NCBI GenBank assembly: GCA_903951425.1
Contig: CAJBBX010000012.1
Span: 1-64,000 of the forward strand
Direction: 5' to 3'
DNA: 64,000 bases
Source of the DNA: an uncultured Chthonomonas sp.
GTDB lineage: Bacteria; Armatimonadota; Chthonomonadetes; Chthonomonadales; CAJBBX01
In this document: piece by piece, positions 29,382-59,992 of the stretch
Layout: each line of letters starts with the position of its first letter
Numbering within the stretch: position 1 is the stretch's first letter
Translations under genes and position numbers: made by a program
The notes under the pieces: generated by a model
Database searches by the model: none
Seen by the model: the letters and a program-made list of their open reading frames with translations, nothing else
What the model was told of the DNA's origin: nothing

Positions 29382-30530
29382 ATGAGCGACCAGAAGGTGC
29401 GGTTCGGCGTCATCGGCACAGGCGGCATGGGGTCGGGACACTGCAACCACATGAACCAGGTGCCCGGCGCCGAACTGACCGCGGTCTGCGACATCGACCC
29501 GGATACGCTGGCCGCCGTCTCGGCCAAGCACGAGGTACCGGCCTTCGCGCAGCCCGAACTGCTGCTGGACAGCGGCCTGGTGGATGCCGTCGTCATCGCC
29601 ACGCCCCACTACTTCCATCCGCCCATCGCCGTCGAGGCGTTCAGCCGCGGCATCCACGTCCTCTCGGAGAAGCCCATCGGGGTGACCGTTTCGGCGGCCG
29701 ACCAGATGATCGCCGCAGCTGAGGCCTCGCGATGCAAGTTCGGCGTCATGTACCAGATGCGCTCATTGGGCAGCACGAAGCTGGCCAAGCAGCTCATCGA
29801 CGACGGACGGCTGGGCGAGCTGTACCGCACCTCCATGGTGCTGGGCTGGTACCGGAGCCAGGCCTACTACAACTCCGGCGGCTGGCGCGCGACGTGGACC
29901 GGCGAGGGCGGCGGCGTGCTCATCAACCAGGCGCCGCACTTCCTGGACCTCTTCGCCTACCTCGGCGGCATGCCCGTGAAGATGACGGGCTCGACGCGCA
30001 CGCGCATCCACGACATCGAGGTGGAGGACGAGGCCTACGCCATGCTGGAGTACGCCTCCGGGGCCCACGGCTACCTCTACGCTACCACGACAGAGTCGCC
30101 CAGCTACGAGCAGTTCGAGTTCTGCGGCAACAAGGGGAAGATCCAGATCCAGAATGGCGCCATCCGCTTCTGGGAGACCAAGGGCGGCATCCGGGAGCAC
30201 TCGGCTGCGGCAGCGCAGATGTGGGAGGTTCCCGAGTCGCCGGAGGTGACCCTGGAGGTTCCGACGGGGCAGGGGCGCCACATCGAGATAACCGAGAACT
30301 TCGTGCGGGCCATCCTGTACGGCGAGGAGTTGCTCTCGCCGGGCCGCGACGGGCTCATGGCCGTGGAGCTGATCGACGGACTGATCATGGCGGGGCAGAC
30401 GGGCGAGCCCGTGACGCTGCCGGTGGACCGGGCGCGTTACGACGCCGTCATCGCGGAGCTTCAGTCAAGCTCCAAGGCTAAGGCCGAGGTGAACGCCCAG
30501 CGTGTGACGGACCCGCACTACACGACCTGA
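29382..30530 (+). CDS. Gfo/Idh/MocA-family oxidoreductase
   Basis: A 382-residue NAD(P)-dependent dehydrogenase of the glucose-fructose/inositol dehydrogenase fold, predicted cytoplasmic (no signal peptide). The Rossmann motif GVIGTGGMGSGH lies at the N-terminus. SEKPIGV is the EKP motif with the active-site Lys. GGGVLINQAPHFLDLF contains the H..D pair typical of inositol-dehydrogenase-like members. ATG 29382 follows AAGGAGAG. It is a single gene with a strong hairpin after its stop. The substrate, probably a cyclitol or sugar, is not determinable. Confidence 0.9.
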   Translation: MSDQKVRFGVIGTGGMGSGHCNHMNQVPGAELTAVCDIDPDTLAAVSAKHEVPAFAQPELLLDSGLVDAVVIATPHYFHPPIAVEAFSRGIHVLSEKPIGVTVSAADQMIAAAEASRCKFGVMYQMRSLGSTKLAKQLIDDGRLGELYRTSMVLGWYRSQAYYNSGGWRATWTGEGGGVLINQAPHFLDLFAYLGGMPVKMTGSTRTRIHDIEVEDEAYAMLEYASGAHGYLYATTTESPSYEQFEFCGNKGKIQIQNGAIRFWETKGGIREHSAAAAQMWEVPESPEVTLEVPTGQGRHIEITENFVRAILYGEELLSPGRDGLMAVELIDGLIMAGQTGEPVTLPVDRARYDAVIAELQSSSKAKAEVNAQRVTDPHYTT

Positions 30531-54876: not shown

Positions 54877-54989
54877 ATGCTTGCTCTCCTGATCTCCAGT
54901 GCGGCATGGGCGCCGCACAAGGTGCATTACGGCAGTGCGACGGAGGGTCGTTCGCCGACGCCCGGCGAACCCCGGAGGTCAGCTCCGCC

Positions 54990-55463
54990 ATGACCCAGCA
55001 GTACACGCACGAGGAAGCGGAGCAGATCCTGCAGATCGCGGTTCGACAGGAGCTTGAGCAGCCCGACGGCCTCGGCGCCGGCGGCGTTTCGGAGGAGGCG
55101 CTCATGCGCATGGCCTCCGAACTGGGCCTCTCGCCTGAGGCCGTCGCGGCGGCAGCCGCCCGGTACCGTACCGAGCGCTCCGACGTAGAAGAGCGCCGTC
55201 TGTTCAACAAGCACCGGCGCGGCGAGTGGCTGAGCCACCTGATCTCCTACGTTGCCGCCAACGGATGCATGATGGCGCTCGATCTCTGGCTGGCCCATCG
55301 CCTGACCTGGTCGGTCTGGCCCCTGTTCGGATGGGGAATCGGCATGATGATCCACACCGGCCAGACCTTCGTGCACACTGACGAGACCGAGGCCGAGTTC
55401 GAGAAGTGGCAGGATCGGCGGTTGCGGCGCCTCAAGAAGAGGGCTAGGCAGGATCGCGAGTAG
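54990..55463 (+). CDS. 2TM-domain membrane protein
   Basis: A 157-residue protein. The first ~60 residues are a short helical domain (TQQYTHEEAEQILQIAVRQE, SEEALMRMASELGLSPEAV) of the kind that precedes bacterial 2TM domains. Two membrane helices follow (~83-100, WLSHLISYVAANGCMMAL; ~105-122, WSVWPLFGWGIGMMIHTG). The tail is basic. This matches the 2TM family, often beside transcriptional regulators. Function unknown. ATG 54990 follows CGGAGG. Confidence 0.8.
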   Translation: MTQQYTHEEAEQILQIAVRQELEQPDGLGAGGVSEEALMRMASELGLSPEAVAAAAARYRTERSDVEERRLFNKHRRGEWLSHLISYVAANGCMMALDLWLAHRLTWSVWPLFGWGIGMMIHTGQTFVHTDETEAEFEKWQDRRLRRLKKRARQDRE

Positions 55464-55490: not shown

Positions 55491-56000
55491 TTGGGAACTG
55501 ACGATCAGGTACCGGACTGCCGCCGCGGCCGCGTCGCGGGAACGCCCGATGACGGGCGGGTTGTGGCCGCCGAACCCATCCGCCGGGGTGAGGTGATCCT
55601 TCGCCTGACCGGAGTGGTCAGGTCGGAAGCGACGCGTCACACGGTACAGATCGGCGACAGACGGCACCTGGACCCCGACGGCGATCCGCTCGAGCCGCAG
55701 CCCTGGCGCTACCTGAACCACAGCTGCCGGCCCAACGCCAGGCTTGCCGGCCTGGACCTCGTCGCCGTCTGCGACATCGCTGCCGGCGAGCAGGTGACGT
55801 TCAACTACAACACGACCGAGGTTGAGACGGCCTCGCCGTTCGCCTGCCGGTGCGGCGCCGCCGACTGCGCCGGGACCATCCTGGGCTTCCGACATCTCAG
55901 CCGACCCGAACAGGAGCGCCTCCGGCCGCTACTGCCGGACCACCTGCTGGAGCTTCTGCCTCGGCGGGGGGCTTCCAGCGCCGACTGCGCGGGCGGCTGA
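55491..56000 (+). CDS. SET-domain protein (putative lysine methyltransferase)
   Basis: A 169-residue protein with SET-domain signatures: RYLNHSCRPNA, then FNYNTTE, and a post-SET cysteine set CRCGAADCAG. SET enzymes move a methyl group from S-adenosylmethionine to lysine on proteins. The start is TTG 55491 behind GGGGAG at ~6 nt; no ATG in frame gives the SET fold. The stop TGA overlaps the ATG of the Pls-like synthetase (TGATG at 55998-56002), so the two are translationally coupled. That pairing hints that it may methylate the synthetase, its lysine-like product or another partner; this is inference only. Confidence 0.85.
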   Translation: MGTDDQVPDCRRGRVAGTPDDGRVVAAEPIRRGEVILRLTGVVRSEATRHTVQIGDRRHLDPDGDPLEPQPWRYLNHSCRPNARLAGLDLVAVCDIAAGEQVTFNYNTTEVETASPFACRCGAADCAGTILGFRHLSRPEQERLRPLLPDHLLELLPRRGASSADCAGG

Positions 56001-59000
56001 TGGCCGCGCATCCGCCTCCCGAGTTCCTGCACGGGTTCCTCGACCGCGCGACGGAAGCGCACCGCGACCGCGTCGCCATCGACGTGCCGCCTGGACCCGA
56101 TCGGCCCGTGCGCGCCACACTGACCTACGGCGAGCTATCCCGACGGTCCGACGCCATTGCCGGCGCCCTCGCGTCTCATGTTGCCGGCGAGGCGGTGGTG
56201 GCCATCCTGCTCCCACGCTCCAACCCGGACCTCTACGCTGCCCAGATCGGAGCCATGAAGGCGGGCGCGGCCTACACCTGCCTCGACGCTGCAAGCCCGG
56301 ACGCCCGGATGGCCGAGGTCCTGGCGGATGCGGCGCCGGTGGCAATAGTGACCGACACCGAAGGGCGCGAACGCCTCCGGGCCGTACCGCACAGCACCGT
56401 GCCGACGCTCGATGCAGCGGAGGCGACCGAGTGCGCCGAGCCGCGCCCTGCGCTGCCCTGGCTGAAGCCCGGGTCGCTTGCCTACATAATCTACACGTCC
56501 GGCACCACCGGCAAGCCCAAGGGCGTCATGCTGGAGCACGCGGGCCCGGCGAACCTGGTGGCCTCCGACCTGCCGGAGTTCGGGCTGGGTCCGGGCGACC
56601 GAGTGGCGCAGGGATCATCGGCCGCCTACGACTCGTCGGTCGAGGAGATCTGGCTCGCGCTGGCAACCGGCGCGACGCTGGTGGTGATGGACGCCGCCGC
56701 CGCCCGGCTGGGGCCGGACCTGACGGCATGGCTCCGCAGCGAGCGCATCACGGTCCTCTGCCCGCCTCCCACCCAGTTGCGCTCCATGGCGTGCGACGAT
56801 CCCGCCGCCGAACTGCCGGACCTGCGCCTGCTCTACGTGGGCGGCGAGGCGCTCCCGGCCGACGTCGCCTCGGCCTGGAGCGGGGGCTGCCGGCTGGTGA
56901 ACGGGTACGGCCCCACCGAGTGCTCCGTGACGGCCGTGCGGGGCGATATCACGCCCGGCGACGCCGTGCACATCGGCCGCCCTGTGCCCGGCCTGTCGGC
57001 CTGGGTGCTGGATGACCAACTGCGGCCGGTCCCTCCCGGCGAGGCCGGCGAGCTCTGCCTCGGCGGCGTGGGCCTTGCCCGAGGCTACCGCAACGACCCG
57101 GACCTCACCGCTCGTCGCTTCCCGATCCACCCCGACTACGGGCGCATCTACCGGACCGGCGACCTGGTGCGGATGGGGGCGGACGGCAACCTGACGTGCC
57201 ACGGCCGCATCGACGCACAGGTCAAGATACGCGGCCACCGCATCGAGCTGGAGGAGGTAGAAGCCGCCCTCACCGCCTGCGCCGGCGTTCGCGAAGCCGC
57301 GTGCCGCGTGCAAGAGGAGGCAGGCGGTGCGGTGCTGGCCGCCTACCTGGTGTCCGCCGACCCCGCCGCGCCGCCCGACTTCGCCGCCGTCCGCGCGGAG
57401 ATCGCCCGGCGCCTGCCCGGCCCCATGGCGCCGTCGCGCATGGCGCTGATCTCGTCCCTGCCCAGGTCCCTCTCCGGCAAGCTCAACCGCGCCGCGTTGC
57501 CCGAGATCGCGCCTCCCGCGGCCCAATGCGCGTCCGGTGACGAGGAAGCCGCGTCGGAGATGGAGGCACGCATCGCCGCCGAGATGGCCGCTTGCCTGGG
57601 CCTTGCCTCCGCGCCGGGACGGCACATGGACTTCTTCCGGGACCTGGGCGGCGACTCGCTCCGCTCCGCGCTACTGGTGTCGGCCCTGCGCCGGCACCCC
57701 TCGACCGCGTCGCTGGCGGTGCGTGATGTCTACGAGGCGCCGACGCCCGCCCGGCTGGCCCTTCGCGCGGCGCAGGCGGCCGCTCCGGAGACGCGCTCCG
57801 CCGCCGCCATGGCCGATGCCGGTGGTTTGCCCCCCGTCTCCGCCGCCCAGGTGCGGCTCGTCACCCTGGCGCAGGGGCTCGTCCTGCTGGCGGGCGTCGC
57901 TGTGGCGACGTGGAGCTCCGTTTGGCTTGCCGCATGGGTGCTACCGGCGCTCTACCGGCACATCGGGCTCGTGCCGCTTGCGGCCGTAGCGCCTCTGCTG
58001 GCGGGACTGGCGGGTGCGGCCTATACGCCGATCTCCGTGCTGGCCGCGGTGGCTGCCAAGCGTCTGCTTATCGGACGGTACCGGCCCATGCGCGCGCCCA
58101 TCTGGAGCGGCTTCTACCTTCGCCACTGGATCGTGATGGAGTTCGCGCAGATGGTCCCGTGGCGCCTGCTGGAGGGGACCGAGGCGCAGGTCTGGGTCCT
58201 GCGCGCGCTCGGCGCCAGGATCGGCCGGCGCGTCCACATCCACCGGGGCGTGGACCTGACCCACGGCGGCTGGGACCTGCTGGAGATCGGCGACGACGCC
58301 ACGCTCAGCCAGGAGTGCTCCCTGCGGCTGGTGGACCTGGATGACGGACGGCTCGTCATCGCACCGATCCGCATCAGCGACGGCGCCACACTGGAAACGC
58401 GTTCCGGGGTCGCCGGCGGCGGCACCGTAGAGGCGGGCGGGGTCCTGGCCGCGCTGTCGCACCTGCCTCCGGGCGGCGTCATCGGCACAGGCGAGAGGTG
58501 GGACGGTGTGCCGGCGCGCCGCGGGGGCATGGCGCTCGACTGTGCGCCGCTCCCCGACGGTGCGTACGAGATCTCTCCCGCCGCCTACGGCGTGCGCCTC
58601 CTGGCGGCCCGCGCACTGCTGATGCTGTTCCTGAGCCTACCGCTGGACGCGCTGGGAGTCGCCCTGGCCATCCTCTCGGGCGGCACGGCCAACGGGCTGG
58701 CGGCGGCGCTGGCCCATCCCGGTTGGCCGCTCGCACTGTGGATTGCCGGCGCGGCTCTGGGCGCTCCCGTCACCGTCGCGCTCCAGGCGCTGGCGTGCCG
58801 CGCCATGGGCCCGGTCCGCGACGGCGCCCTGCCGCGATGGAGTTCCGGCTACATCCGCATCTGGCTGAAGGCCGGGCTGGTGCGGTCCGCCGGGAACTGG
58901 CTGAGCGGGGGCCTCTACTGGCCTGTCTGGCTCCGGGCCGCGGGCATGCGTGTGGGGCCGGGCTGCGAGATCAGCACCATCATCGACGTCGTTCCCGAGC

Positions 59001-59992
59001 TTGTGGAGATCGGGCGCGACACCTTCTTCGCCGACGGCATCTATCTGGCCGCTCCCCGCATCCACCAGGGAGTGGTCGAGGCGAGGATGACCGGGCTGGG
59101 GGCCGACACGTTCCTTGGGAACCACGCAGTGATCCCCTCCGGCGTGGTGCTGCCCGGCAACATCCTCCTGGGCGTCTGCACGGTGGCCGACTCGGTAGCG
59201 GTGACCGAGGGCTCGAACTGGTTCGGCCATCCGCCCTTCCGCCTGCCCCGGCCGCGGCAGACGGAGGTCGACCGGACGCTGACCCACGCTCCGCCCCCGA
59301 TCCGCTACTGGAACCGCGTGGGTTGGGAGCTCCTCCGGTTCGCGTTGCCCGTGGTCTACGCCGGTCTGGCGGCCGCCGCCGGCGCGCTCTGGCTACTCTG
59401 CGAGTCGCGGCTCGGGATCGCCGCCACACTGCTATGGAGCCCCGTAGCGGCGGTCGCCGGCGGCTTCATCCTCTGCCTCCTGGTGCTGGCCCTGAAGTGG
59501 CTCCTCCTCGGCCGCGTCAAGCCGGGGGTCCATCCGCTCTGGTCATGCTGGTGCAGCCGGTGGGACTTCCACTACGTGGCATGGGGGTACCTGGCCCGGC
59601 CGATCCTGGCGAGGCTGGCGGGCACGCTCCTGCTGGTCGGCTATGTGCGGGCCATGGGCGCCCGCGTGGGCGCATCGGCCGTGCTGGGTCCGGGCTTCGC
59701 CCAGGTGGTGGACCCGGACATGCTCACCATCGGCGACGGCGCCACGGTGGAGTGCCTCTTCCAAGCCCACACCTTCGAGGACCGGGTGCTGAAGATCGAC
59801 CACGTCCGGATCGGCAACCGCGCCACGGTGGCCCATGCCTCAGTGATGCTCTACGGCGCCGAGGTGGGCGAGGGCGGATCCGTCACCCCCCACAGCGTGG
59901 TCATGAAGGGCGAGCGGCTGGACCCGGGCCTGGTGTACCAAGGCGTACCCACGAGGCCGGCTCAAGCCGCCATCAGGCCCCGGTCGGGCTGA
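56000..59992 (+). CDS. Pls/PosA-like non-ribosomal peptide synthetase
   Basis: A 1330-residue membrane synthetase with the layout of epsilon-poly-L-lysine synthetase Pls: adenylation, carrier, membrane helices, and three tandem C-terminal domains, with no condensation or thioesterase domain. A-domain marks: YIIYTSGTTGKPKG at 162-175, YGPTE at 303-307, YRTGDLVRMG and SGKLNRAAL. The specificity loop YDSSVEE places Asp211 and Glu215, where basic-residue-activating domains often have an acidic residue. The carrier phosphopantetheine site is Ser553 (GGDSL). Hydrophobic helices alternate with left-handed-beta-helix-like segments at ~730-850, ~975-1080 and ~1215-1320. Likely product: a homopolymer of a basic amino acid. 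ATG 56000 overlaps the SET gene stop. Confidence 0.88.
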   Translation: MAAHPPPEFLHGFLDRATEAHRDRVAIDVPPGPDRPVRATLTYGELSRRSDAIAGALASHVAGEAVVAILLPRSNPDLYAAQIGAMKAGAAYTCLDAASPDARMAEVLADAAPVAIVTDTEGRERLRAVPHSTVPTLDAAEATECAEPRPALPWLKPGSLAYIIYTSGTTGKPKGVMLEHAGPANLVASDLPEFGLGPGDRVAQGSSAAYDSSVEEIWLALATGATLVVMDAAAARLGPDLTAWLRSERITVLCPPPTQLRSMACDDPAAELPDLRLLYVGGEALPADVASAWSGGCRLVNGYGPTECSVTAVRGDITPGDAVHIGRPVPGLSAWVLDDQLRPVPPGEAGELCLGGVGLARGYRNDPDLTARRFPIHPDYGRIYRTGDLVRMGADGNLTCHGRIDAQVKIRGHRIELEEVEAALTACAGVREAACRVQEEAGGAVLAAYLVSADPAAPPDFAAVRAEIARRLPGPMAPSRMALISSLPRSLSGKLNRAALPEIAPPAAQCASGDEEAASEMEARIAAEMAACLGLASAPGRHMDFFRDLGGDSLRSALLVSALRRHPSTASLAVRDVYEAPTPARLALRAAQAAAPETRSAAAMADAGGLPPVSAAQVRLVTLAQGLVLLAGVAVATWSSVWLAAWVLPALYRHIGLVPLAAVAPLLAGLAGAAYTPISVLAAVAAKRLLIGRYRPMRAPIWSGFYLRHWIVMEFAQMVPWRLLEGTEAQVWVLRALGARIGRRVHIHRGVDLTHGGWDLLEIGDDATLSQECSLRLVDLDDGRLVIAPIRISDGATLETRSGVAGGGTVEAGGVLAALSHLPPGGVIGTGERWDGVPARRGGMALDCAPLPDGAYEISPAAYGVRLLAARALLMLFLSLPLDALGVALAILSGGTANGLAAALAHPGWPLALWIAGAALGAPVTVALQALACRAMGPVRDGALPRWSSGYIRIWLKAGLVRSAGNWLSGGLYWPVWLRAAGMRVGPGCEISTIIDVVPELVEIGRDTFFADGIYLAAPRIHQGVVEARMTGLGADTFLGNHAVIPSGVVLPGNILLGVCTVADSVAVTEGSNWFGHPPFRLPRPRQTEVDRTLTHAPPPIRYWNRVGWELLRFALPVVYAGLAAAAGALWLLCESRLGIAATLLWSPVAAVAGGFILCLLVLALKWLLLGRVKPGVHPLWSCWCSRWDFHYVAWGYLARPILARLAGTLLLVGYVRAMGARVGASAVLGPGFAQVVDPDMLTIGDGATVECLFQAHTFEDRVLKIDHVRIGNRATVAHASVMLYGAEVGEGGSVTPHSVVMKGERLDPGLVYQGVPTRPAQAAIRPRSG

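Follow-up and report, generated by a model that had tools for sequence, protein, structure and literature searches.

A conserved pair of SET-domain and Pls/PosA-like synthetase genes suggests a candidate class of bacterial polymers

The TIGR02353 family of cationic homopolyamino-acid synthetases includes PosA, which makes delta-poly-L-ornithine, and Pls, which makes epsilon-poly-L-lysine. Passages of PMC10522769 describe the PosA terminal domain as repeats of a helix pair and a beta-helix, and give a rule for the ten-residue code of the adenylation pocket: Asp and Glu at positions 1 and 3 mark cationic substrates, the Glu binding the side-chain amine. Code position 2 tracks chain length (Phe for Dap or Dab, Met for Orn, Ala for Lys), and a small residue there permits longer chains. 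The same passages report on Bdello_A, the adenylation domain of a Bdellovibrionales CHPA synthetase with the code DSECYGGVTK, which favoured none of Lys, Orn, Dab or Dap and activated only L-Arg, weakly or modestly; the authors surmised that its true substrate is a 'larger analog'. They also provide a precedent for a neighbouring enzyme that makes a modified monomer, the epsilon-poly-beta-lysine synthetase of Streptoalloteichus hindustanus, which differs from the system considered below in its modifier, a lysine 2,3-aminomutase, and in its code, DGESISVVNK.

SET enzymes that act on free amino acids have been described separately. BurB of Burkholderia thailandensis converts free methionine to S-methylmethionine (PMC12542666), and its product is converted further before an adenylation domain dedicated to zwitterionic starters loads it (PMC7496086). 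Rubisco LSMT, also a SET enzyme, methylates free lysine (Trievel 2003, as cited in a passage of PMC8085414). A full-text search of the main texts of open-licence papers found no described pairing of a SET gene with a poly-lysine synthetase. In the passages of PMC10522769 considered here, the main text mentions no SET domain or gene and its description of the Bdellovibrionales synthetase includes no partner genes.

Here we describe such a pair in an uncultured Chthonomonas sp. (Armatimonadota). The window is the whole stretch analysed, 64,000 nucleotides of contig CAJBBX010000012.1, and its features of interest are as follows.

55491..56000, + strand: SET-domain protein, 169 aa, TTG start (PF00856, 42 bits)
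55998..56002, + strand: TGATG stop/start overlap, read from the sequence and also present in both congeners
56000..59992, + strand: Pls/PosA-like, NRPS-like synthetase, 1330 aa (profile matches, tree)
56042..57500, + strand: adenylation domain (PF00501/PF13193; code by alignment)
57569..57760, + strand: peptidyl carrier protein with conserved Ser, GGDSLR (PF00550)
57887..59950, + strand: predicted terminal polymerisation domain in which helix pair and beta-helix occur three times (TIGR02353 positions 10-694, model)

Architecture of the pair and of its synthetase

The stop codon of the SET gene (TGA, 55998-56000) shares a base with the start codon of the synthetase (ATG, 56000-56002), an overlap from which translational coupling of the two genes is predicted. 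The congeners start their SET genes with ATG or GTG at the position matching the TTG of the window. By profile search, the whole genome holds a single SET gene and a single full-length TIGR02353-type gene, and both belong to this pair. A gene for a 2TM-domain membrane protein (54906-55463) stops 27 bp upstream of the SET gene, and in this genus the two possibly share one transcript.

The synthetase resembles PosA and Pls in its A-PCP-terminal layout at about 1330 aa, in its three helix-pair/beta-helix repeats, in having Asp first and Glu third in its code and in the invariant residues of the terminal domain. An adenylation domain (TIGR01733, 395 bits), a carrier protein whose Ser is present in 74 of 77 aligned rows and a terminal domain of about 700 residues lie on one chain. 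In the structure model of residues 601-1330 (pLDDT 91, pTM 0.91), a pair of long helices leads into a region rich in strands, a unit that occurs three times. The model thus predicts the six membrane helices, grouped as three pairs, and the three beta-helix segments that characterise Pls and PosA. Among solved structures, hexapeptide (beta-helix) acyltransferases and gamma-carbonic anhydrases come closest in fold. When the PDB was searched with a canonical terminal domain, the matches were weak and all to gamma-carbonic anhydrases. Residues invariant across canonical and SET-paired terminal domains are kept, including QxHxFED in the third repeat; the terminal domain of the window synthetase is 28-30% identical to canonical ones. 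A first-pass annotation of the window, made from the sequence alone, had pointed out the TGATG overlap, the tandem beta-helix-like domains and the Pls-like arrangement and length, and all of these hold.

That annotation also called the synthetase Pls-like. It is a relative of Pls, but not a canonical member of the family: it differs from PosA and Pls in a terminal-domain score of 352-354 bits, below the curated TIGR02353 cut-off of 423.1, and in its separate clade, its pocket code and its SET partner. Matches to TIGR02353 in Armatimonadota fall into two groups, a canonical one above the cut-off (13 matches, 440-649 bits, none with an adjoining SET gene) and a complete SET-paired type at about 312-400 bits. 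In the tree, ten canonical copies split from the remaining 59 rows with full support. Two genomes (G022 and G025) hold both kinds of synthetase, and the SET gene adjoins the SET-paired kind only.

The pocket code of the window synthetase, taken like the others from a full-length alignment, is DSECYGGVTK (residues 211, 212, 215, 254, 279, 281, 302, 310, 311 and 494). It is identical to that of Bdello_A and conforms to the cationic-substrate rule given in passages of PMC10522769. The same code occurs in 57 of the 58 readable SET-paired synthetases, the remaining one having DSESYGGVTK, despite a median identity of 47% among these proteins. Canonical copies without SET from the same phylum carry DAESIGTVIK or DGESLGTVGK. 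On the strength of this code and of a clade of its own, we reject the idea of a simple Pls orthologue that makes poly-lysine.

Two further observations concern codes. The synthetase at locus L156 has the variant DSEMYGGVTK, and there is an in-frame TGA in that genome. DGESLGTVGK belongs to a set of canonical Armatimonadota synthetases (L140, L141, L145-L149) and does not appear among those that the relevant passages of PMC10522769 name; this group may have a further orphan substrate.

Distribution of the pair across bacterial genomes

We scanned 84,980 species genomes with SET motifs and kept 80 SET loci. The motifs bias what is found, so the frequencies are valid for this SET clade only. Within it, a synthetase lies directly downstream at 58 of the 80 loci. 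In each of the 61 pairs measured, both genes share a strand; the median gap is -4 bp, 55 pairs lie within 100 bp, and in most pairs, whatever the phylum, the genes overlap slightly, usually by 4 bp. The window SET gene and its six close homologues in relatives are in every case followed by an adenylation domain of the same synthetase type; one further match there, at L013, was rejected as a spurious, chance hit. The closest named relatives are metagenome-assembled genomes of Armatimonadota. The adjacent pair was also found in Planctomycetota, Verrucomicrobiota, Actinomycetota, Acidobacteriota and Pseudomonadota, and Gemmatimonadota hold both genes unlinked. With about seven phyla represented, the system is not lineage-specific, contrary to what the first-pass annotation supposed.

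Linkage is not the only sign of association. Among the 22 SET loci that lack an adjoining synthetase, 11 are in genomes with this synthetase type elsewhere, one of these synthetases having a second SET as its own partner. A synthetase (L201, 14941-18960) and a SET gene (29409-30008) of Streptomyces sp. NBC_00648 are about 10 kb from each other on a single linear plasmid. All 11 SET-bearing genomes among 291 Armatimonadota have the synthetase (Fisher 5e-17), as do eight of the nine with a close SET among 312 Planctomycetota (Fisher 6e-12). Distances among SET proteins track those among synthetases (r 0.79, a value reached in 0 of 2000 permutations), and shared species history contributes to this figure. 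Adjacency and co-occurrence support the earlier suggestion that the pair works as one unit. An accident, or lineage inheritance alone, could explain adjacency within one genus but is scarcely credible for an overlapping pair kept across phyla while all other neighbours change, and which co-occurs even unlinked.

Clustering of all ORFs around the SET loci yielded no third widely conserved neighbour, on which ground a larger gene cluster was rejected. As far as they were inspected, the remaining large clusters consist of shadow frames of this pair; the smaller ones are confined to subsets of the loci. The lack of another widely shared neighbour implies that the pair would need only primary metabolites.

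Several loci show less common arrangements. One Phycisphaerales genome (G302) has two SET genes, one paired and one unlinked (L105 and L154), and in two genomes SET and synthetase are on separate contigs (L138/L135 in G071, L139/L033 in G069). On the NBC_00648 plasmid the two genes are in opposite orientation, the SET gene adjoins a SulP transporter, and the synthetase is named in RefSeq only as 'amino acid adenylation domain-containing protein'.

Eight synthetases with DSECYGGVTK, three from Armatimonadota and five from Planctomycetota (L188-L192, L131, L132, L134), come from assemblies in which no SET gene was detected, and the upstream ORFs that were inspected by eye showed no replacement methyltransferase. 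Perhaps SET is not an absolute requirement, or perhaps it was missed in these draft genomes.

The SET protein and its likely substrate

The SET protein scores above the gathering cut-off of PF00856. It has the NHxC motif, the catalytic Tyr and the post-SET cysteines of SET methyltransferases, and no large SET insertion. Profile, Foldseek and VIA-align comparisons agree that the nearest solved relative is BurB (9l4t), also the best sequence match in the PDB. The model (pLDDT 89) matches BurB with Z 14.8, the next fold reaching 12.3; superposition covers 130 residues at an rmsd of 3.7 A, with about 33% identity over the fold. Protein (histone) lysine methyltransferases share the fold at lower Z. 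The protein is like BurB in size, in its Q, H and T-E positions and in the placement of its gene beside an assembly line (PMC7496086). The bur cluster differs in having decarboxylase, transaminase and dehydrogenase genes, which are not conserved neighbours of the pair described here. From these comparisons we predict a BurB-like small-substrate methyltransferase.

Invariant residues of the SET protein are Q53, H59, W72, N76-H77, F104, Y106 and E110. F104 stands two residues before the catalytic Tyr, at the F/Y-switch position of lysine SETs that sets the number of methyl groups, and an invariant Phe there suggests more than one (di- or trimethylation).

We propose that the pair is a two-gene cassette in which SET methylates a free amino acid and the synthetase activates it and joins it into a cationic polymer, a reading that we hold in even balance with doubt. 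The SET protein would use SAM to methylate its substrate, probably the free monomer, before assembly. Its product would most likely be lysine methylated at the side-chain amine (N6), which best fits the pocket and SET chemistry, with di- or trimethylation likelier than mono. The adenylation domain would then activate this larger cationic amino acid, its pocket opened by Tyr, Ser and Gly at pocket positions 299, 236 and 322, with the retained Glu at 239 binding the cation. The activated monomer would be loaded on the carrier protein, and the membrane-bound terminal domain with its three beta-helices would link the units into what is probably a short cationic polymer. That the pair travels together across phyla suggests that SET makes a methylated building block for the synthetase. 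In trimethylated lysine the side-chain nitrogen would be unavailable for the isopeptide bond that is usual in this family; linkage would have to run through the alpha amine, a departure for the family. BurB methylates sulfur, so the SET substrate may also not be lysine. That SET binds a free amino acid is predicted from BurB, whose Ser88 is replaced by Trp72 in the window protein.

The first-pass annotation had the polymer made first and methylated afterwards. Tailoring after assembly or on the carrier, in which SET would N-methylate a cationic homopolymer of an unmodified amino acid, would explain the conserved pair and its coupling equally well, and SET enzymes classically target lysine within a peptide chain. 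The eight genomes with the synthetase and no detected SET fit a dispensable later step and keep this a live rival, albeit an unlikely one. What tells against it is that the adenylation pocket departs from that of lysine-type canonical relatives in step with SET, that the same pocket did not favour the four diamino acids tried with Bdello_A (passages of PMC10522769), and that the SET protein is minimal and nearest to an enzyme of free amino acids. Methylation before activation is therefore likelier. Another part of the earlier proposal that stands is a cationic amino acid as the likely substrate class.

If SET were instead a true equivalent of BurB, S-methylmethionine would be made and then activated by the synthetase, its sulfonium cation pairing with Glu239. 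BurB is the best match by sequence and by fold, and Q53, H59, T109 and E110 are common to both proteins, T109 and E110 being unmatched in the NSD2 alignment. This identity is nevertheless improbable. Ser88 of BurB, which sits between substrate and SAM near the transferred methyl, and Leu92 correspond to Trp72 and Asn76, each without exception in the 61 paired sequences; Asn76-His77 belongs to the canonical NHxC motif. Moreover, by the rule in passages of PMC10522769, the small residue at position 2 of the code suits a chain as long as that of lysine; S-methylmethionine is shorter, and it lacks the second amine that the family's isopeptide linkage requires.

Lysine methylation in proteins is what many SET enzymes do, and in RefSeq such proteins carry the name 'SET domain-containing protein-lysine N-methyltransferase'. 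Methylation of the synthetase or another host protein, as regulation and not product chemistry, is highly improbable given that SET is tightly tied to a single type of synthetase in different phyla, that its neighbourhood has no conserved target protein and that its nearest characterised relative uses a free amino acid.

Implications for SET enzymes and bacterial polymers

A SET gene beside another kind of assembly line was seen on a plasmid of Eleftheria terrae (NZ_CP106953.1; L200, 6001-6360), where a BurB-like SET gene lies by a type I polyketide synthase. It also adjoins genes for a TauD dioxygenase, an aminotransferase and an aldehyde dehydrogenase, a set resembling the (DMSP-type) building-block genes of bur. 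The wider SET family thus recurs beside assembly lines, and BurB-type SET proteins are a recurrent assembly-line partner across many phyla.

Methylation before assembly would offer a specific answer to what the orphan DSECYGGVTK adenylation domain activates. The pairing suggests a hitherto undescribed class of bacterial polymers. That these are widespread polymers of N-methylated lysine, possibly trimethylated and permanently charged, with SET making the monomer for the synthetase, is a tentative and somewhat doubtful extension. Carriers of the pair include the culturable actinomycetes Lentzea, Amycolatopsis, Kibdelosporangium, Planosporangium and Gandjariella, so the products can be searched for directly. 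N-methylated cationic polyamino acids would, if real, represent a new natural material akin to epsilon-poly-L-lysine, a food preservative, and the SET family, known mainly for histone modification, would supply the monomer to a dedicated polyamino-acid synthetase.
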